Shown here one piece after another: positions 2,739 through 25,171 of a stretch of DNA of 25,171 nt. The translations under genes were made by a program, and so were the position numbers. The stretch is taken from the IMG/VR virus record IMGVR_UViG_3300017769_000114, positions 1 to 25,171 of that record. The stretch is one strand, 5' to 3'. Positions within the stretch are counted from its first letter, which is position 1; every line of letters starts with the position of its first letter. Source of the stretch: a virus. Below the pieces are notes generated by a model. That model saw only the letters and a list, made by a program, of their open reading frames with translations. It was not told the origin of the DNA and made no database searches.

Positions 2739-3152
2739 TTAGTTTTGGTTGAATGGTCCTGCAGCTGAGCTGTCCAATCCGAACACACCGAACTCCACCA
2801 TCTGATCTACCTTGGTGCCGTAGACTCTGTATGATTTATTCACTGCAACGGGAATAAAACAAAACTCAGAGCCACCCACCTTTGCCACAAGACCATCGTT
2901 GTCCGTGTCATTGTAGATGTATACATACGTCTCCTTCTCTGTCTCCAGATTTTTAATGAAGAGATATGCCGATTCGGTTTTGTCGTTGGCTGTATAGACC
3001 TCTAGAGCATTTGCATCTACAGCAGTCTTCACAACCTTAGCTCGGCTAAGAATGCCAGAGTCTGCGGCTCCAGAAAAATCTGCAGATACGTTTACAGGGC
3101 TTGCCAAAACGGAAGCGCTGCTCAACGTCAATGTCGCTCTAAGCGTAGCCAT
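2739..3152 (-). CDS. Small virion protein, paralogue of the adjacent gene
   Basis: 137 aa, starting MATLRATLTLSSASVLASPV. The N-terminal pattern MATxxATLTLSSA and a central (A)YLFIKNLETEKETYVYI strand pair recur in the neighbouring 130-aa protein (MATTTATLTLSSADL and KVYIRNTSTVATENIAI), so the two look like a diverged tandem duplication. The gap to the upstream gene is 2 nt. The alternating beta pattern suggests an Ig-like or jelly-roll virion protein such as a decoration or fibre-attachment subunit. No enzymatic motif is seen. Confidence 0.55.
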   Translation of the reverse strand: MATLRATLTLSSASVLASPVNVSADFSGAADSGILSRAKVVKTAVDANALEVYTANDKTESAYLFIKNLETEKETYVYIYNDTDNDGLVAKVGGSEFCFIPVAVNKSYRVYGTKVDQMVEFGVFGLDSSAAGPFNQN

Positions 3153-4640: not shown

Positions 4641-6551
4641 TTATACTGCTGCTATTGTTACGTAACCACCGTGAACCTCATTGCCTGAAGCATTGGCTAT
4701 CCCTATAAATAAATAATTAGTTGTAGAGCTAGTTACATCTGTTATATCAATCTCTGTACCTACGTTACCAGTTCCTTTGCTAACGCCTGTTTTAGAATCA
4801 ATCTGAAACTCCCAAACCTCAACGGCATCTGCAGCAGATCCATTAATTTTAACGTGTGTTGCTTTAAACCCCGTAGGTATTGCAATTGATGCATAGATTG
4901 GATTGGAAGAAAATGACTCTAAAAACAGTTGATCTATACCAATATTAGTATCATCTATAAAAAGGGGTCTACCACCGTCGTCAGCAATAAAGTCTCTAGG
5001 CAAAATTTTAATTCTTGTCGTTGAACCATGCCAACCGTCCGAACCACCGCCAACCGCTGCAATACGATCGTTGATAGCTGCTGATGTCATAAGGTGCTCA
5101 TCAGAATCTACAAACTCACCAGCTAGATCTACATCATTGATGGCGTGTCCGCCAATTTTATAAATCCCAACATTAACAGCGGCACCAGTAAAAGTACCAG
5201 CAGTATTGACTGCACAACTGCCATTGCCTAGGGTAACATTTACTACATCTTCAGACGCTCCACTTGTGACAATTAACCCTGGCTGTAACTCTCCATCGTG
5301 ACTGGCTACCTTGATTGTCATCTTGCCCTCTTCGGAGCCATCGTCTGCCTCGTCTATCTCACAAAGAATAAAGCCAAAAGTTTGATCATTGTCTGCGGCG
5401 TCAAGTCCGTTAAAAAAAATCTTACCAAGATCATCTCCATCCGCCCCAGTAGTGCTCTTTTTAAACACAAGCTGAGGTGCTAAGCCATTGGTATTGGTGT
5501 TGTTAAGTAAAAGAGACGGCTTATTTGAAACAGAAGAACTTACAGACAGATCACCACCATCAAAAGTTAGGTCAGCTTCAGCTTGAATTGCAGAAGTTCC
5601 ATTCCCTGTAAGCAGTGCGTTTGACGTTAAGGTGGTAGCCCCCGTGCCCCCTTTGGCTACGGTAACAGTATCAGACAGTGTAGAGCCAGCAGCAGTAACC
5701 GTGATAGGTGCAGTACCGTCAAAGTCCACACCATTGATTGCTCTAGCTGTGGCAAGTGCTGTAGCTGTTGCAGCATTTCCCGTACACGAACCTGAAGACC
5801 CTGAAACAGTAGTTTGATCGCCTGTATTGTTTCCTGATATAGTAGCATCTGAAAGAGCAGTGCTAAGTTGAGCCACACTAAAAGAACCTAAAACAGCGGC
5901 ATTACCAGTGGATGTAATGTGGCCTGTTAGGTTTGCATTAGTTGTTACTGTAGCTGCGTTACCAGTAGTGCTTTGGTTAAGGGTAGGAACATTGTTTGCG
6001 TGTATCGTACCTGCTCCATCAGATGTAAGGTCTACAGGAATAGCATCAACAACTAAGTCAATGTTTCCATCATCATCTTGATACGTGGCTGATATCCTTG
6101 TCTCTGTATTGCCGCTAAACATGGCTCCCACGATATCCTGAACCTGCTCAGAAGTCAAGACAGTGTCAGTATCGGTTACAGTATTTGTAAATGTAATCTT
6201 ATCTCCAGACCTAGCAATGGAAAGTCCCGTGCCAGCCTCTAGGACCACGTCATCATTTACTCCAGCGCTGTCAGATAATCTGATCTTCTCTTCATCACTG
6301 TTGTCTCCATCTACGCATGAGACAGAATATGATCTGCCGTCAGATCCAGCAGCTCCTGTAGCTCCTGTTGCACCTGTTGCTCCAGTATCTCCCTTGTCGC
6401 CTTTTGGACCTTTTGATGTAACAACAAAACTGTTTGCTACAGGAGAAGCAACAGATACAGTGCTTGTTGTCTGAGTGAAGCTAAGCGCGTTACTGCCAGA
6501 AACAGAAACCTCTACAGTATTCCCCTGTGTTGATGATACAGTTACACTCAT
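4641..6551 (-). CDS. Tail fibre with collagen-like Gly-X-Y segment
   Basis: 636 aa. An N-terminal beta domain (residues 1-47) is followed by a collagen-like run of about eight Gly-X-Y triplets (GPKGDKGDTGATGATG..., residues ~48-72), known in phage fibres as a trimerising segment. Next come long Gly/Thr/Asn/Ala repeats including VAKGGTGATTLTSNALLTGN around residues 300-320, a pattern frequent in marine phage fibres, and a C-terminal beta domain (WEFQIDSKTG...). The N-terminus overlaps the previous gene by 4 nt. It probably forms a trimeric receptor-binding or appendage fibre. No C-terminal chaperone or protease domain is evident. Confidence 0.75.
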   Translation of the reverse strand: MSVTVSSTQGNTVEVSVSGSNALSFTQTTSTVSVASPVANSFVVTSKGPKGDKGDTGATGATGATGAAGSDGRSYSVSCVDGDNSDEEKIRLSDSAGVNDDVVLEAGTGLSIARSGDKITFTNTVTDTDTVLTSEQVQDIVGAMFSGNTETRISATYQDDDGNIDLVVDAIPVDLTSDGAGTIHANNVPTLNQSTTGNAATVTTNANLTGHITSTGNAAVLGSFSVAQLSTALSDATISGNNTGDQTTVSGSSGSCTGNAATATALATARAINGVDFDGTAPITVTAAGSTLSDTVTVAKGGTGATTLTSNALLTGNGTSAIQAEADLTFDGGDLSVSSSVSNKPSLLLNNTNTNGLAPQLVFKKSTTGADGDDLGKIFFNGLDAADNDQTFGFILCEIDEADDGSEEGKMTIKVASHDGELQPGLIVTSGASEDVVNVTLGNGSCAVNTAGTFTGAAVNVGIYKIGGHAINDVDLAGEFVDSDEHLMTSAAINDRIAAVGGGSDGWHGSTTRIKILPRDFIADDGGRPLFIDDTNIGIDQLFLESFSSNPIYASIAIPTGFKATHVKINGSAADAVEVWEFQIDSKTGVSKGTGNVGTEIDITDVTSSTTNYLFIGIANASGNEVHGGYVTIAAV

Positions 6552-15072: not shown

Positions 15073-17331
15073 TCAAAGAGTTGTTAGATCTATACACTGT
15101 TGATCAGTAAGAGCTGAATCCCACACAACGACGCTTTTGGTTTTGTGACCACTCTGATTTGTTGTGGTCCCATTTCTGATAAGGGAGATCTTGTCGTAGA
15201 TGTCAGCAGCAACAACAGTTCCAGTTGTTCCCAGCTTTACACCGTTTACGAATACATTAAATGTTGTTCCATCAACGCGGCCAATACATTTAAAGATATC
15301 TCCTCTAGTTAAACCTGTCTTCTGTATAGCGACATTAGTATCGCTTTCTCTGTGCTGAACATTGATGTCATGAGTAGAGCCAACTGAAGAATTGGTTGCA
15401 AAAAATAGAAATCTGTTTTGATCATCAACCCTCAGCTGAAGGATACTTATTTGACCCCCACCTCCAAAGACTCGTGCTTCAAGAAGAACAGTCACCGCTG
15501 TGCCTAGCGTAATTCCGTGTGTGATTTCTGGAAGAACATCAGCGCTTCTAGTAGCTGCAGTGCCATGACAAGGGATATAAGAGGTAGGATTAGCACTGTT
15601 GCTGCCTTCTTCTAGTTGCCAGCCCCACGTCTCTATAGATGTAGTGGCTGTACCGTTTGCTCTGTCAATGTCTAGTTCAAAATCACCTGCAGTAGAGTTG
15701 GCTGTAAATGTAAAGCCTATACGCCACCAGTCATTGCCGTAACTCTCTACAAAAGCTCCAGTTCGAGTTCCACTTGCTCCAGTAGAGGTTAGTGCCAAAG
15801 ATGTTCCAGTCCACTGAAAACCCTGACGAAACAGTTCATTAGATCCTGCATCTGTCCTACACGCAAGGGTGGTAACACCAGTGCAATCAATGTTTTTTAC
15901 AAATGCTGATATCGAGTAATTTTCTGAATTTGTAAGGGTGACATTGTCATTTGATATTGGTTGAATCCTGTCGTTAGCATCAGCTCCATCCTTGGCAACC
16001 TTTAGAGATGACTTAGTGCCGTCTGGAGCTATACCATAATTTACAGTTAGGGTAACGTCATTGGTATGCTCTACAATACCCTCACTATTTGGAACTTCAT
16101 TTTTTCTCAGCGGCTCAACCAGCAAGGCAGGGGCGCCACCAGAAAGAGGGTAGTCAAAGCGTGGTTCATCTTCTTTGATGCCAGCTGTGCCTGCAGATCC
16201 ATTGCTAAAGATAATTTCTGTCGGGACCAGCCCAAGTTCCCACTGGGCATCTTGAATAAAGATACCCCCATTGTTTGTCCCGCCTCTATTTGGGTCTCCT
16301 GTAAACGAATGATTGTTGTCTTCTAAAGCGATATTAAAGTTAATCTGAGTTATGGCTATATCAGCGTTTACAGTCATAGAGCATCTAAAATAACCGTTGC
16401 CTGCAGGAGTTATCTTCGCTTCAATAACATCGCTTTCTGTCGTTCCTACAGTTCCATTTGCAAGATCAAAATAAGCTTCTTGATTTCCACTCTGGGTTCC
16501 GATTCCAAGAAAAGTATATCCCAATGGTTTTGCATGAATACTGATTGTTTGAACTACTTGACTATTTACAGAAACTCCTGCCTGAGTGTTTACTTGAACT
16601 CTATGAACACCAGTGTTAGTCTCAGACCTCATGTATGTGGCGTTGTTGGTTCCGTCGTATCCTTCCTGACCCAGTGAGTTGTGAATCCCCTGCACGCTGG
16701 ACAAACCCGCATGACCCCACGTTCCAATATCTTTAGAAAAGTTAGTGCTGTATAAGAATTTATTCTCCCTCCCCTTCTCGATCAACCCAGTAGGGCCTAC
16801 GCGAGTAGCGTCGAGGTTGGCGTCTCTGCTGATAGTAAAATCTGCGACATCCATCTCTTTGCAAGAGACATTGTCGATAGATCCTACAAAGTCAGATTCC
16901 GCATTGAACTGAACGGTTGGGAAGGTGAACGGCGTCCCTGAAGCCACCAAGTGCTCTACGTATGTCCCTGCAGCAGATCTGTCAGTACCGTAACCCGTGT
17001 TGCCAGCCTTAACGCGCACGATGCCAGCTGTATACGAAGTAATTGTGTACTCAACCCTGTAAGTCTTTCCGTTCACAAGGCCATTACCTGCTGCGTTGTG
17101 CAGGTTGGTGGTGGAGGATTGTGATCCGTCACATGAAGCCACGCCACCGCTAATGCTAAACCCAGTTCCTTTGGTCCAATCTGAATCAGAATCAAATGTA
17201 CCATTTATGATGAGCTCACTCCCAAGAGATCCGTCTGGCTTAACATTGTAAACCTTACTGGCGTCTTTTGTTTCAAGACCAGCAGCCGCAGAGGCCAAAA
17301 ACATGATTTTTGCGTCGTCGTATAGAGCCAT
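15073..17331 (-). CDS. Large tail fibre / carbohydrate-binding protein with C-terminal LamG-like domain
   Basis: 752 aa. N-terminal attachment segment MALYDDAKIMFLASAAAGLE, then three jelly-roll-like modules: residues ~35-160 (ELIINGTFDSDSDWTKGTGF), ~190-400 (LYSTNFSKDIGTWG) and ~415-595 (VPNSEGIVEHTNDV). The C-terminal ~150 residues fit a concanavalin/LamG fold (VTVLLEARVFGGGGQI... RVDGTTFNVFVNGVKLG) and end with WDSALTDQQCIDLTTL, a common fibre terminus. Such proteins bind surface glycans. It is followed by two small genes likely to be fibre partners. It is separate in sequence from the collagen-like fibre, so the virion probably carries two appendage types. Confidence 0.7.
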   Translation of the reverse strand: MALYDDAKIMFLASAAAGLETKDASKVYNVKPDGSLGSELIINGTFDSDSDWTKGTGFSISGGVASCDGSQSSTTNLHNAAGNGLVNGKTYRVEYTITSYTAGIVRVKAGNTGYGTDRSAAGTYVEHLVASGTPFTFPTVQFNAESDFVGSIDNVSCKEMDVADFTISRDANLDATRVGPTGLIEKGRENKFLYSTNFSKDIGTWGHAGLSSVQGIHNSLGQEGYDGTNNATYMRSETNTGVHRVQVNTQAGVSVNSQVVQTISIHAKPLGYTFLGIGTQSGNQEAYFDLANGTVGTTESDVIEAKITPAGNGYFRCSMTVNADIAITQINFNIALEDNNHSFTGDPNRGGTNNGGIFIQDAQWELGLVPTEIIFSNGSAGTAGIKEDEPRFDYPLSGGAPALLVEPLRKNEVPNSEGIVEHTNDVTLTVNYGIAPDGTKSSLKVAKDGADANDRIQPISNDNVTLTNSENYSISAFVKNIDCTGVTTLACRTDAGSNELFRQGFQWTGTSLALTSTGASGTRTGAFVESYGNDWWRIGFTFTANSTAGDFELDIDRANGTATTSIETWGWQLEEGSNSANPTSYIPCHGTAATRSADVLPEITHGITLGTAVTVLLEARVFGGGGQISILQLRVDDQNRFLFFATNSSVGSTHDINVQHRESDTNVAIQKTGLTRGDIFKCIGRVDGTTFNVFVNGVKLGTTGTVVAADIYDKISLIRNGTTTNQSGHKTKSVVVWDSALTDQQCIDLTTL

Positions 17332-17332
17332 A

Positions 17333-17875
17333 TCAGTCTTGTAAAGAGTTTACAATCAGCTTAGAAAAGTGCGATGCTTCACCTAAGTCTTGAGCATCAA
17401 GCAACAAACAGTCTCTAAGATCCCTGTATGCGATAGTTACAGTGTCACCACACTCCAAAGCTTCAGCAATGGGTGGGTAAATCCTTTGGTATGCTTGTGT
17501 GGATTTGCCAATAAAACCACCCGCTTTGGTATTGTTGTTTTCTTGGGTATCACCCACCAGTAGACAACCAGCAGTATCCTCGTCTGTGTTGCCGCAATGG
17601 ATCAGGATGTACTGAAAGTTCGGGACACCGCAGACCTCTAACATACCCTTGTGGATATCCTGGAACCTGCCAGAGTATTTGTTGTGGTACCCACCCTCTG
17701 TTCTGAATCTAATCTCGTAGGTGCCGTCGGGGATGCATGTCTCACCCCACACCTTCTCCTCACGATCTTCATCCTCCAGGGTGTAGCACAGAAACTCCCT
17801 GTCTCCTGTGACGTCAAACAACATGCCGTTGGTGGCATCGACGCCCTTATTAAACCGAATTACTTCAAGCTTCAT
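17333..17875 (-). CDS. DUF5675-like protein, possible L,D-transpeptidase relative
   Basis: 180 aa. Contains CYTLEDEDREEKVWGETCIPDG split around residues 30-51, HKGMLEV (75-81), PNFQYILIHCGNT (85-98) and DTAGCLLVG (100-108). These match my recollection of the DUF5675 family. The H93...T101-x-G-C104 arrangement is reminiscent of the YkuD L,D-transpeptidase His/Cys site, suggesting peptidoglycan binding or processing; that functional link is inference. It sits between the large fibre gene and a small beta protein, so roles in lysis or cell-wall penetration are possible. The C-terminal ~30 residues look like an added helix. Confidence 0.6.
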   Translation of the reverse strand: MKLEVIRFNKGVDATNGMLFDVTGDREFLCYTLEDEDREEKVWGETCIPDGTYEIRFRTEGGYHNKYSGRFQDIHKGMLEVCGVPNFQYILIHCGNTDEDTAGCLLVGDTQENNNTKAGGFIGKSTQAYQRIYPPIAEALECGDTVTIAYRDLRDCLLLDAQDLGEASHFSKLIVNSLQD

Positions 17876-19047: not shown

Positions 19048-19233
19048 GGGGCTAAGCTATCAGCAGCCCCCGTGATCACCAAGATAATGCGGTATAATGA
19101 TGATTATGTGCCAAAGAAACAGGATGCAGCTGTCTCTTAAGAACCAATTAAAACGAACTACCAGTGATTCTCTACGAATACACTAAAAACAAAACGAATC
19201 GTTAGGTTTTTCTGGTTTCGCTTCTAACTACAG

Positions 19234-19324: not shown

Positions 19325-19661
19325 AATCAGACTGATCGGAGAAGAATCGCGCAACCGCAGAAAAAAGGGCGCAAAAGGGACTGAAGAAAAATTTGGGCTG
19401 AAAATTTTTTGAGTCATAGAGGTGAAGGGGATTATATATATATGCGCACGCCACGCACGCCTACCCGAAACGCGCTTATGATACCTATCTACCGCACACA
19501 TACGCGGTTAGCTGTATACTTTCAGCTTTTTGTACAGCGCTGTGCGACAGCCACTTGCCGTACCCCACGTTAAGTAACCGTACATGTGTAGGTATATGCG
19601 GTTAGTTATGGGTTTGGCTCCCCCAGCTATAAGCGGCCCGAGGACAACTCCCTCCTCCTAT

Positions 19662-19685
19662 ATGAGTACTACCAGTAGTACTCAT
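19662..19685. repeat. 10-bp perfect inverted repeat
   Basis: ATGAGTACTA, a CCAG spacer, and TAGTACTCAT. It lies 30 nt before the first long hairpin and could be a stem-loop or an operator for the rightward block. There is no U-run, so it does not look like a standard intrinsic terminator. Confidence 0.45.
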
Positions 19686-19714
19686 CCATGACCCCAGACT
19701 CCGACCCCTTAGAG

Positions 19715-19771
19715 GTTGTTAGTAATAAAAGAAGATGATTCGTTTACGAATCTTCTTTTATTACTTACAAC
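19715..19771 (+). repeat. Long covarying hairpin 1, leader of the first rightward gene
   Basis: The left arm (19715-19742) and right arm (19747-19771) pair over about 24 bp with one mismatch and a 3-nt bulge; the loop is TTTA. Its end is 14 nt before the ATG at 19786. Same architecture as the hairpins at 20378, 22082 and 24518, with stem sequence differing but pairing kept. There is no U-tract. Confidence 0.75.
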
Positions 19772-19785
19772 ATCTTAATCCTTAA

Positions 19786-20031
19786 ATGATGGCAAAATCC
19801 ACCACCACCCCCCAGTCCTTGATGTCTGCTACCAAGTCAGCAATCAACAAGGCTAGTTACTACACTACCAAGGAGAAGAAAGCCTTGGCTCTCAAGCTGT
19901 TGGCCCAACTCACTTCAGAGGTCGAAGCCTTGGAAGTCGTGGTGCCTAAGGCGAAGGCAACCAAGTCAAAGCCTAAGAACATCAGCAAGATGACAAAGGC
20001 TCAGTTGATTGAACTCATCAACAAGGGCTAA
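19786..20031 (+). CDS. Small basic protein with SAP/Rho-N-like C-terminus
   Basis: 81 aa. It begins MMAKSTTTPQSLMSATKSAI; the second ATG, three bases on, is an alternative start. It has a helical centre (KEKKALALKLLAQLTSEVEA), a Lys/Pro linker (VPKAKATKSKPKN) and a C-terminal ISKMTKAQLIELINKG. The last segment resembles the short helix pair of SAP/LEM/Rho-N-type nucleic-acid-binding motifs. It is the first rightward gene and may be an early regulator or DNA-binding protein, an inference from the tail motif and charge. Confidence 0.65.
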   Translation: MMAKSTTTPQSLMSATKSAINKASYYTTKEKKALALKLLAQLTSEVEALEVVVPKAKATKSKPKNISKMTKAQLIELINKG

Positions 20032-20042
20032 CACCCCACCCA

Positions 20043-20096
20043 GTTACTCTGACGAGGCTTCAGTAGCCGAAACCCCCCCCTTGGGGGGTCAGTAAC
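20043..20096 (+). ncRNA. Hammerhead ribozyme (type I)
   Basis: All core positions of the hammerhead are present in order. Stem I 5' strand GTTACT (20043-20048); CTGACGA (20049-20055, the CUGANGA box); stem II GGCT/AGCC (20056-20059 with 20065-20068, loop TCAGT); GAAA (20069-20072). Stem III pairs A20072-T20089 and C20073-20078 with G20083-20088, loop CCTT. The cleavage triplet GTC is 20088-20090, and stem I 3' strand AGTAAC (20091-20096) pairs perfectly with GTTACT. Stem I is the open helix, hence type I. Predicted cleavage is after C20090, leaving a 5'-OH RNA that starts 23 nt before the ATG at 20114. Confidence 0.88.
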
Positions 20097-20113
20097 AATT
20101 CAATTCAATCACC
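20097..20113 (+). promoter_or_regulatory. AATTCAATTCAAT leader
   Basis: Unstructured A/T/C-rich leader AATTCAATTCAAT between the ribozyme and the ATG at 20114. The same 13-mer precedes the genes at 23512 and 24595. There is no Shine-Dalgarno; A-rich leaders are usual for Bacteroidetes translation starts. Confidence 0.5.
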
Positions 20114-20359
20114 ATGCAAACTCTTGCACAGAAGGCACGCCGAGCCAAGCGTATGACTAAGACCGAGTGGACAGATGTACGTCAAGTACGTAACCACGTA
20201 TCCACGACCTTCATCCGTTCAGAGATGGCGGCAAAGTCAGACAGACCATCCCGTCCGTCACGGCAGACGTGTGAGAAGTTGGTCATCCAAGCAGGTGAGA
20301 CGCCGCAGGAAGCGTACCTACGTAGCAAGGAAGAGTGGCTCAAAGCCCAGTCAGCCTAA
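20114..20359 (+). CDS. Small basic protein, unknown function
   Basis: 81 aa, MQTLAQKARRAKRMTKTEWT, with a basic N-terminus, a Ser/Arg/Pro centre (SDRPSRPSRQTCEKL) and an acidic-helical tail (EAYLRSKEEWLKAQSA). A monocistronic unit: preceded by the hammerhead and followed by hairpin 2. No family recognised. Confidence 0.6.
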   Translation: MQTLAQKARRAKRMTKTEWTDVRQVRNHVSTTFIRSEMAAKSDRPSRPSRQTCEKLVIQAGETPQEAYLRSKEEWLKAQSA

Positions 20360-20377
20360 CCGAATCCACCAACCTTT

Positions 20378-20436
20378 AGAGAGGTTAGTAATATATATCT
20401 CATGGAACATGAGAGATATATATTACAAACCTCTCT
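20378..20436 (+). repeat. Long covarying hairpin 2
   Basis: The left arm (20378-20404) and right arm (20408-20436) pair over about 25 bp with two small bulges; the loop is GAA between CATG and CATG. It ends 24 nt before the ATG at 20461. The outer part (AGAGAGG ... CCTCTCT) is nearly identical to hairpin 4, the inner part differs. Confidence 0.75.
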
Positions 20437-20460
20437 TAACAACCATCAAATCCTTTCCCG

Positions 20461-22081: not shown

Positions 22082-22144
22082 AGTACTATCAATAAGAAGA
22101 AGAAAGACTCAGAATGAGTCTTCTTCTTATTGATTAGTACAACT
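22082..22144 (+). repeat. Long covarying hairpin 3
   Basis: The left arm (22082-22111) pairs with the right arm (22115-22144) over about 26 bp with bulges; the loop is GAA as in hairpin 2. The stem is purine-rich (AATAAGAAGAAG) on the left. It ends 15 nt before the ATG at 22160 and immediately follows the preceding gene cluster. Confidence 0.72.
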
Positions 22145-23430: not shown

Positions 23431-23489
23431 GGATATAGACCACAGGTGCGAATGGTTGGGTTATCCGAAGGTTCGATTCCTTCCGCACC
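23431..23489 (+). ncRNA. tRNA-like / pseudoknotted RNA element
   Basis: Contains a consensus tRNA T-arm: GAAGG, loop TTCGATT, CCTTC (23467-23483), abutting CGCACC (23484-23489), which pairs with GGTGCG (23445-23450) as an acceptor-like stem. The distance is too short for a normal tRNA (about 45 nt from GGTGCG to CGCACC), and no anticodon arm fits. An alternative fold keeps the same pairs: GGATA (23431-23435) with TATCC (23462-23466) and GACCA (23438-23442) with TGGTT (23453-23457), making GGTGCG the apical loop and the 6-bp helix a pseudoknot. It starts at the first base after the preceding stop codon and lies 22 nt before the next ATG, like the hairpins and ribozyme. Confidence 0.6.
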
Positions 23490-23496
23490 GCAAAAT

Positions 23497-23511
23497 TTTA
23501 AATTCAATTCA
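23497..23511 (+). promoter_or_regulatory. AATTCAATTCAATG leader
   Basis: AATTCAATTCA runs directly into the ATG at 23512. Third-party copies precede 20114 and 24595. Shared leader in three of the six rightward units. Confidence 0.5.
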
Positions 23512-23934
23512 ATGTCAAACGACACACAATCCACGTCCTACTGGGACAACAAAGGCAAGTACCAAACCGAATACAACGAAGCATGGAAGCAACTCGTCCC
23601 CGCGTCTGGCGAAGCTGAGGACGGCCTACCCGAAGCCCTCCGTTCCATCTCTCGTATCGGATACGACTACTACAACAACGGGTTCTGCAACCTGTGGCAG
23701 ACGGGGTGGGACGACGACCCTGACATCACGATGGACCCGTACTACGAAGACATGGTGGAGTACGTAGGATACCACGTCTCATCCCGAAAGTTGTACAACG
23801 ATTTCACAAACTGGTTGCGAACCACAAAAGGGTACTGCAACTGGAGTGACGGCGCTAACGTCATGGACCAAATCATCGACGACATCATGAAGCAAATCCT
23901 TGACGAAAACCTTATTAAGATCGGACAAGCATGA
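23512..23934 (+). CDS. Acidic Trp/Tyr-rich protein, unknown function
   Basis: 140 aa from the ATG at 23512 (MSNDTQSTSYWDNKGKYQTE); an in-frame ATG upstream at 23446 would run through the RNA element and is rejected. Rich in Asp, Trp and Tyr (YYNNGFCNLWQTGWDDDPDI, YVGYHVSSRKLYNDFTNWLR). First gene of a four-gene cluster. The family is not recognised by name. Confidence 0.65.
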   Translation: MSNDTQSTSYWDNKGKYQTEYNEAWKQLVPASGEAEDGLPEALRSISRIGYDYYNNGFCNLWQTGWDDDPDITMDPYYEDMVEYVGYHVSSRKLYNDFTNWLRTTKGYCNWSDGANVMDQIIDDIMKQILDENLIKIGQA

Positions 23935-24433: not shown

Positions 24434-24519
24434 TTGTTCTGCTTTGCTTCACCTGTCTTGCATGTGGCATCGTCATCGGTGTCGGATGGGGACTGGACCG
24501 AAAGGACTCAAACCATTAG
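24430..24519 (+). CDS. Mini membrane protein
   Basis: 29 aa, MIVLLCFTCLACGIVIGVGW then GLDRKDSNH. One hydrophobic transmembrane segment with three Cys and a charged tail; ATGA overlap with the preceding gene. Its TAG is at the foot of hairpin 4. Very short, so the call rests on coupling and the clear TM segment. Confidence 0.5.
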   Translation: MIVLLCFTCLACGIVIGVGWGLDRKDSNH

Positions 24520-24577
24520 AGAGGTTTAGTAATATATCTCTCAATGTAATTGAGAGAGATATATTACAAACCCCTCT
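24518..24577 (+). repeat. Long covarying hairpin 4
   Basis: The left arm (24518-24545) pairs with the right arm (24549-24577) over about 26 bp with small bulges; the loop is GTA. It begins inside the stop codon of the preceding mini gene and ends 17 nt before the ATG at 24595. The outer stem resembles hairpin 2 (AGAGAGGTT...). Confidence 0.75.
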
Positions 24578-24580
24578 TAT

Positions 24581-24594
24581 ACAATTCAATTCAA
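24581..24594 (+). promoter_or_regulatory. AATTCAATTCAATG leader
   Basis: ACAATTCAATTCA runs straight into the ATG at 24595; same motif as at 20097 and 23497. Confidence 0.5.
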
Positions 24595-25171
24595 TGCCAC
24601 ATCTCATTACTCAAAACACCAAGCTCAAAAGGACGAGCAACATCATTGGGCAACGGGTCTTCAACTTCGGTATCCCTGCATTCCAAGATTCGGACGGCAA
24701 GAGAACCTGCCCCTTTGCAGGTGAGTGTGCTAAGTTCTGCTATGCACAGAAGGGTGCGTATGTGTGGAGCAATGTCGCCCCTGCCTTTCAGTACAGATAC
24801 ATGGCAACCAAATGCGACTCCTTCGTAGACAAGATGGTGGCTGAGTTGACGAAGAAACGTGTAGACATCCTCCGTGTCCATGACTCTGGCGACTACTATT
24901 CCACGGCATACATCGACAAGTGGATTGAGATTGCCAAGGTCTTGCCCAATGTCCGCTTCTATTCATACACGAAATCCATTCCTCTATTTTTACACAGGAC
25001 CATGCCCGAGAACTTTGACATCATCTTCAGTGAGGGGGGCACACGAGATGAGCTTATCGACTACAGCAAGCACCGTCACTGTCGCATCTTTGACGACGTG
25101 GAGGCCTTGGAGGGGGCAGGGTATGTCAATGCTATGAAGTCTGATGTCATGGCGACCAAGTGGTTCAACGC
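24595..25171 (+). CDS. Gp88-family protein (C-terminus outside window)
   Basis: 192 codons visible, continuing past the window. A Cys cluster C39-x5-C45-x3-C49 (CPFAGECAKFC, then YAQKGAYVW), RVHDSGDYYS (94-103), FYSYTKSIPLF (122-132) and SEGGTRDE (146-153) match the phage Gp88 family as I recall it (Pfam Gene product 88). The Cys cluster followed by an HDSGD strand and a YSYTKS strand recalls the layout of phage radical-SAM-like barrels such as DUF5131 proteins, so an Fe-S or metal site is possible; this is inference. It heads a new unit after hairpin 4. Confidence 0.7.

Follow-up and report, generated by a model that had tools for sequence, protein, structure and literature searches.

In phage T7, RNase III processing sites lie between the early genes and their use needs a host protein. 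Hammerhead ribozymes are known in viroids and retrozymes, where they release circular or small RNAs. In prophages, it was proposed that hammerheads flanking genes cut phage transcripts into operon- or gene-length mRNAs, and cleavage of transcripts with several hammerheads was observed in vitro as well as, with one arrangement, in E. coli (Perreault et al., 2011; PMC3088659). The role of hammerheads in bacteria and phages was an open question as of 2017 (PMC6155905), and the reason for their gene associations was unknown as of 2023 (PMC10085705).

Here we analyzed a hammerhead in a virus record of 25,171 bases (the window). The ribozyme itself belongs to a known, widespread phage class; it shares with the phage and prophage type I hammerheads the core, the three helices, the NUH cleavage triplet and an intergenic site in a phage genome (PMC3088659). 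The difference from the clusters described there is that it is a single hammerhead in an uncultivated flavobacterial podovirus-like phage and that it is mixed with hairpins and a tRNA-like element before a shared leader. An earlier note on this DNA knew of no description of a hammerhead used as a cistron separator, a use that had already been proposed in 2011 (PMC3088659). In the open-access literature no account was found of a rule for the spacing between cut and ATG, or of hammerhead, hairpin and tRNA-like elements before one leader. The spacing rule and the interchange of the three element types may, provisionally, be new.

Structure and conservation of the hammerhead

The window terminase is 42-49% identical to those of Flavobacterium elemovirus isolates and of an uncultured podovirus-like genome, the best among the listed matches, and Cellulophaga phages also match. 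A blastn comparison of the operon with cultivated phages gave no match, and the cultivated relatives were found via a terminase protein search. One protein of a near-identical 62 kb contig (L001) has a Por_Secre_tail sorting domain, consistent with a host among the Bacteroidota; an RNA ligase or end-repair enzyme was not found among those contig proteins that were searched. A rightward operon of small genes begins near 19.7 kb. In the divergent intergenic region, at 19659-19686, there is a ten-bp hairpin, ATGAGTACTACCAGTAGTACTCAT, that relatives keep with a compensatory change (GTACAAC/TGTAC in L139) and that is a possible operator or promoter feature.

The ribozyme lies between two genes of this operon, gene A (19786-20031, + strand; possibly starting at its second ATG, 19789) and gene B (20114-20359, +, ATG at 20114). 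Each encodes 81 amino acids with no family match. In agreement with the earlier note, the ribozyme is in the sense orientation, on the same strand as both genes. The gap between the gene A stop codon and the ribozyme is 11 nt, as opposed to the abutting stop codon that is usual in the class, and no U-tract terminator is apparent at this junction.

The hammerhead (20043-20096, +) reads, from 5' to 3', GTTACT-CTGACGA-GGCT-TCAGT-AGCC-GAAA-CCCCCCCCTTGGGGGGTC-AGTAAC. Stem I has 6 bp (GTTACT 20043-20048 with AGTAAC 20091-20096) and is open-ended, followed by the catalytic core C3-A9, CUGACGA (20049-20055). Stem II has 4 bp (GGCT 20056-20059 with AGCC 20065-20068) and a TCAGT loop. The GAAA at 20069-20072 contains the core GAA (12-14) and A15.1, and stem III has 7 bp, made of the A20072-U20089 pair and six C-G pairs. 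The cleavage triplet is GUC (20088-20090), of the NUH type, with C20090 as H17, and from its position within the fold the predicted cleavage site is between C20090 and A20091. Among 53 aligned phage hammerheads CUGANGA is invariant except for N7, and GAAA is invariant. Thus every core nucleotide that had been named from the sequence is in place, and the type I hammerhead is complete: the core with the A15.1-U16.1 pair, the three helices and the triplet are found together with covariation around a fixed core, and the strand order is that of type I, with stems II and III closed by loops and stem I open. Energy folding, unaided, gave precisely the three hammerhead helices (6, 4 and 7 bp) as both the MFE and the centroid structure. 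Loop II (UUCAGUA) and the A and AA that flank stem I agree with the consensus of the class, which hints at a possible conserved tertiary contact of the stem I region with loop II.

It had been suggested that such a match is very unlikely by chance, and this is borne out by 9,625 dinucleotide shuffles of the window (485 Mb, both strands), which gave no match to a motif with at least 5, 4 and 6 bp in stems I, II and III. Scanning IMG/VR by the core pattern, blind to gene positions, gave at least 120 matching stretches, and in the scanned loci the motif scanner accepted at least 154 type I and at least 20 type III hammerheads, duplicates included. A covariance model, R1, was trained on 53 further type I hammerheads from phages; the family of the window was left out. 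In this class alignment 98.6% of the cells are paired, compared to 68% in shuffles, and both sides vary in 13 of the 16 pairs. The window site reaches 64.3 bits with R1 (E 2.3e-15, filters off), and the next-best site in the window 12.3 bits. The motif scanner likewise accepted a single hammerhead in the window, and the near-identical 62 kb contig also has just one.

Searching with the hammerhead models of Rfam had been proposed as a check; the site falls below the Rfam cut-offs. Rfam 15 reported no hammerhead at gathering cut-offs, nor at E<=10 over 5.7 kb. For a 71-nt slice the best match was RAGATH-1-hammerhead (RF03152), which has the same strand order and core as the window ribozyme but scores far below its gathering score (22.5 against 56.3 bits); only model positions 26-77 align, over 20044-20095, leaving the first 25 unmatched, and the site falls short of membership in that family. 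The match to Hammerhead_II (RF02276, type II) is truncated and also below the gathering score (17.4 against 37 bits), and a loop closes stem II, which is open-ended in type II. The miss is explained by the Rfam thresholds, because in seven loci that were checked none of 22 phage hammerheads was reported at gathering thresholds. The class is therefore probably under-annotated.

A protein search with gene B found L001, whose DNA is 99.98% identical to the window, and L002 (74% protein identity); the search with gene A also found L139, L140 and L141, the last of which stops within gene A. The hammerhead is kept at the identical A-B junction in L002/L136, L139 and L140, even though gene B has diverged in L139 and L140, whose proteins share just 46-51% identity with that of the window. 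The six C-G pairs of stem III in the window (C6/G6) are CTCCC/GGGAG in L002 and L139 and GGTCAC/GTGGCC in L140. In L140, moreover, an A-U pair of stem I is replaced by G-C, a G-C pair of stem II by U-A, and the cleavage triplet is CUC, with position 16.2 compensated. Among nine distinct members 99.3% of the cells pair, 11 of the 16 pairs changed on both sides and none of 500 shuffles was equal, in an alignment that was fitted to the covariance model and so favours the structure. The earlier note had named loss of the core in close relatives as evidence that would count against a ribozyme; the core is kept in all three related phages while the stems vary with compensation.

Hairpins, a tRNA-like fold and a shared leader

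Four long AT-rich hairpins, all on the + strand, are found in the window: hp1 (19711-19775) 5' of gene A, conserved in L138, L139, L140 and L141; hp2 (20375-20439) between genes B and C, conserved in L138, L139 and L140; hp3 (22088-22134) 5' of gene J; and hp4 (24513-24579) 5' of a GP88-like gene, with a hairpin at the same place in L139. They are near-perfect duplexes of 16-27 bp, three of which share AGTAATA...TATTAC, and they are confined to junctions between genes of the rightward operon; the 62 kb contig has long hairpins of this type in those four places only. A loose terminator scan listed parts of hp1-hp4 on both strands. We set aside the possibility that these are ordinary terminators, given the near-perfect 16-27 bp duplexes and the absence of a clear U-tract after them. 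Our guess is that they may be RNase III sites. The analogue would be T7, where a polycistronic early phage mRNA is likewise cut between cistrons, with the difference that T7 requires the host protein whereas the hammerhead of the window would cut itself.

Between genes O and P there is a tRNA-like minihelix (23445-23492, +), with a 6-bp acceptor, a 5-bp T stem and the canonical T loop UUCGAUU, without an anticodon arm. ARAGORN reported no tRNA for either the window or L139, the minihelix has no Rfam match above threshold, and a search for its relatives returned the near-identical contig only. It might be a substrate of RNase P or RNase Z that serves as a cistron boundary. A second, different tRNA-like fold, with a 7-bp acceptor and a canonical T arm, is found in L139 (8340-8413, +), at the contig end after the last gene.

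Three kinds of element in the window, the hammerhead, the tRNA-like element and hp4, are each followed by a copy of one leader motif, AATT(T)CAATTCA(A/G)T, which stands directly before a start codon. The three copies compare with 0.01 expected per shuffled window. At the A-B junction, AATTCAATTCAAT (20097-20109, +) is part of the 23-nt leader predicted for the downstream mRNA (20091-20113, +). After the tRNA-like element AATTCAATTCAAT is at 23501-23513 (+), with the gene P ATG beginning at 23512, and after hp4 it is at 24583-24595 (+), with the ATG of the GP88-like gene beginning at 24594. Of the copies listed for the window, for the contig near-identical to it and for three relatives, 12 of 12 follow a hammerhead, a long AT hairpin or a tRNA-like fold; three of these 12 are the near-identical contig's repeats of the window's own copies. 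The gene starting with MSNQNRVQSS in L139 has its leader after hp2 and its homologue in L140 has the leader after a second hammerhead, which means that both elements precede one leader, before the same gene, in sister phages. L140 has at this place (5679-5899), between hp2 and the next gene, a homologue of gene J with its own hammerhead, where L139 has the hairpin and leader only; this looks like a gene-plus-ribozyme cassette that was gained or lost.

Position of type I hammerheads among phage genes

The position relative to genes was determined for a further 177 type I hammerheads of phages that had sufficient flanking sequence, 123 in a discovery set and 54 in a hold-out set that was drawn by a different core pattern and from which already-seen sequences were removed. 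The downstream measure was the first ATG to begin a frame of 40 codons or more, with random positions on the same strands as control. Such an ATG lies 18-32 nt 3' of the cut in 62 of the 123 discovery hammerheads (7% expected; median 27 nt) and in 24 of the 54 of the hold-out (8% expected; median 30 nt), where percentages are approximate, since ORF calls followed simple rules in place of a gene finder and the contigs are in part related to one another. In the window the predicted cut is, as the earlier note had stated and the sequence confirms, 23 nt ahead of the ATG at 20114, which is inside the census range.

On the other side, 107 of 113 discovery and 47 of 51 hold-out cases have an upstream ORF of at least 50 codons that ends between -20 and +25 nt relative to the ribozyme. 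The stop codon often occupies the three bases directly preceding stem I, lies one base into stem I, or coincides with the core UGA. As CUGANGA itself holds a stop codon, part of this last group could be mechanical, though the frames that end there are at least 50 codons long. The census is one of position and says nothing on effect. Fixed spacing across many unrelated phages, together with a stop codon in or next to the ribozyme and the natural swaps of elements, leads to a testable answer on the role of these hammerheads, namely cistron-by-cistron processing of phage mRNA.

Proposed role in the early operon

Based on these data we consider it likely that this type I hammerhead is active and divides the polycistronic mRNA of the early rightward operon at the A-B junction. 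Cleavage would take place in cis, during or after transcription, with the chemistry and end groups of established hammerhead biochemistry. The upstream product would end in the folded ribozyme body, with the 7-bp stem III as its last helix and a 2',3'-cyclic phosphate, and the downstream product would begin with a 5'-OH and the short, open leader AGUAACAAUUCAAUUCAAUCACC (23 nt) ahead of the gene B start codon. The cut would probably serve to provide gene B with a short 5' end of its own and to protect the 3' end of gene A, and the two 81-amino-acid cistrons could then be translated and decay independently. Elsewhere in the operon the same place is filled by the long hairpins, probably as sites for a double-strand RNase, and by the tRNA-like fold, possibly as a tRNA-processing site. 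The use as a cistron separator beside other RNA elements, which the earlier note had put forward, is thus well supported by the positional census and by the leader shared after three element types; the cleavage itself, any effect on mRNA stability or translation, and the function of the hairpins and of the tRNA-like element are inferred. A wider proposal stands in our view at even chances. It holds both that phages of this group partition one early transcript by interchangeable elements of three chemistries (a self-cleaving ribozyme, a double-strand hairpin and a tRNA-like minihelix) before the same leader, and that phage type I hammerheads are in general compact modules of stop codon, ribozyme and leader that set mRNA 5' ends 20-30 nt before a start codon.

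Several points speak against our preferred explanation. Stem III, long and rich in C/G pairs, might pair wrongly with C- or G-rich stretches elsewhere, ribosomes that translate gene A during transcription could slow ribozyme folding, and the 11-nt upstream gap differs from the abutting stop codon of the class. Another hypothesis, which we regard as possible though rather unlikely, is that the ribozyme mainly forms the 3' end of the gene A mRNA, as a terminator substitute with a nuclease-resistant fold, and that the gene B leader is a by-product of compact packing. The type I geometry leaves the entire folded ribozyme with the upstream RNA, most upstream stops in the census are right at the ribozyme, many of them either immediately preceding stem I or formed by the UGA of the core, the second hammerhead of L140 came together with its upstream gene J, and the lack of an apparent U-tract terminator at the A-B junction points the same way. 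However, the spacing from cut to ATG is equally tight, and the leader motif is common to junctions with other element types. Present evidence does not distinguish a 5'-leader role for gene B from a 3'-end role for gene A.

A switch controlled by a ligand, a protein or translation, in which regulated cleavage decides the co-expression of A and B, is improbable. Terminating ribosomes could control folding in that part of the census where the upstream stop is inside the ribozyme, but in the window the stop codon is 11 nt upstream, and loop II and the flanks are short, are common to unrelated phages and have no room for an aptamer. We find it very improbable that the element is an inactive stem-loop in the shape of a hammerhead, for example a protein-binding site or a remnant: some hammerhead-like RNAs were indeed inactive when tested (PMC3088659), yet here all core bases are kept in relatives and the stems change with compensation. 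The release of a circular or small non-coding RNA, for which viroids and retrozymes are the established precedent, has next to no probability here, as the flanks are protein genes; a pair of ribozymes releasing a small RNA was rejected because the window and the 62 kb contig have one hammerhead only.

Cistron processing by these hammerheads can be tested in cultivated phages with the same class of ribozyme, such as the Flavobacterium elemovirus and the pelagiphages. Flavobacterium elemovirus 7-9A (NC_055852) has a type I hammerhead at 17287-17349 on the minus strand (R1 55.4 bits); its predicted cut is 28 nt before the annotated start of gp69, and a small upstream ORF stops at stem I. A 231-bp segment that includes it has matches in 68 isolate records, of which the best 60, those listed, are at least 97% identical. 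Pelagibacter phage HTVC019P (NC_020483) has a type I hammerhead at about 2946-3011 (R1 47.7 bits), far from the next annotated gene. Both are of the same class as the window ribozyme according to R1 and differ from it in their neighbouring genes. The elemovirus genome has a further, type III hammerhead near 19138 (minus). In HTVC019P and a related uncultured phage, type III hammerheads (near 972, +, in L146 and near 284, +, in L147) are found a few tens of bases before start codons, beside type I. The annotated hypothetical gp68 of NC_055852 (17275-17382, +; 35 codons) runs antisense across the elemovirus type I hammerhead and is probably a spurious gene call.
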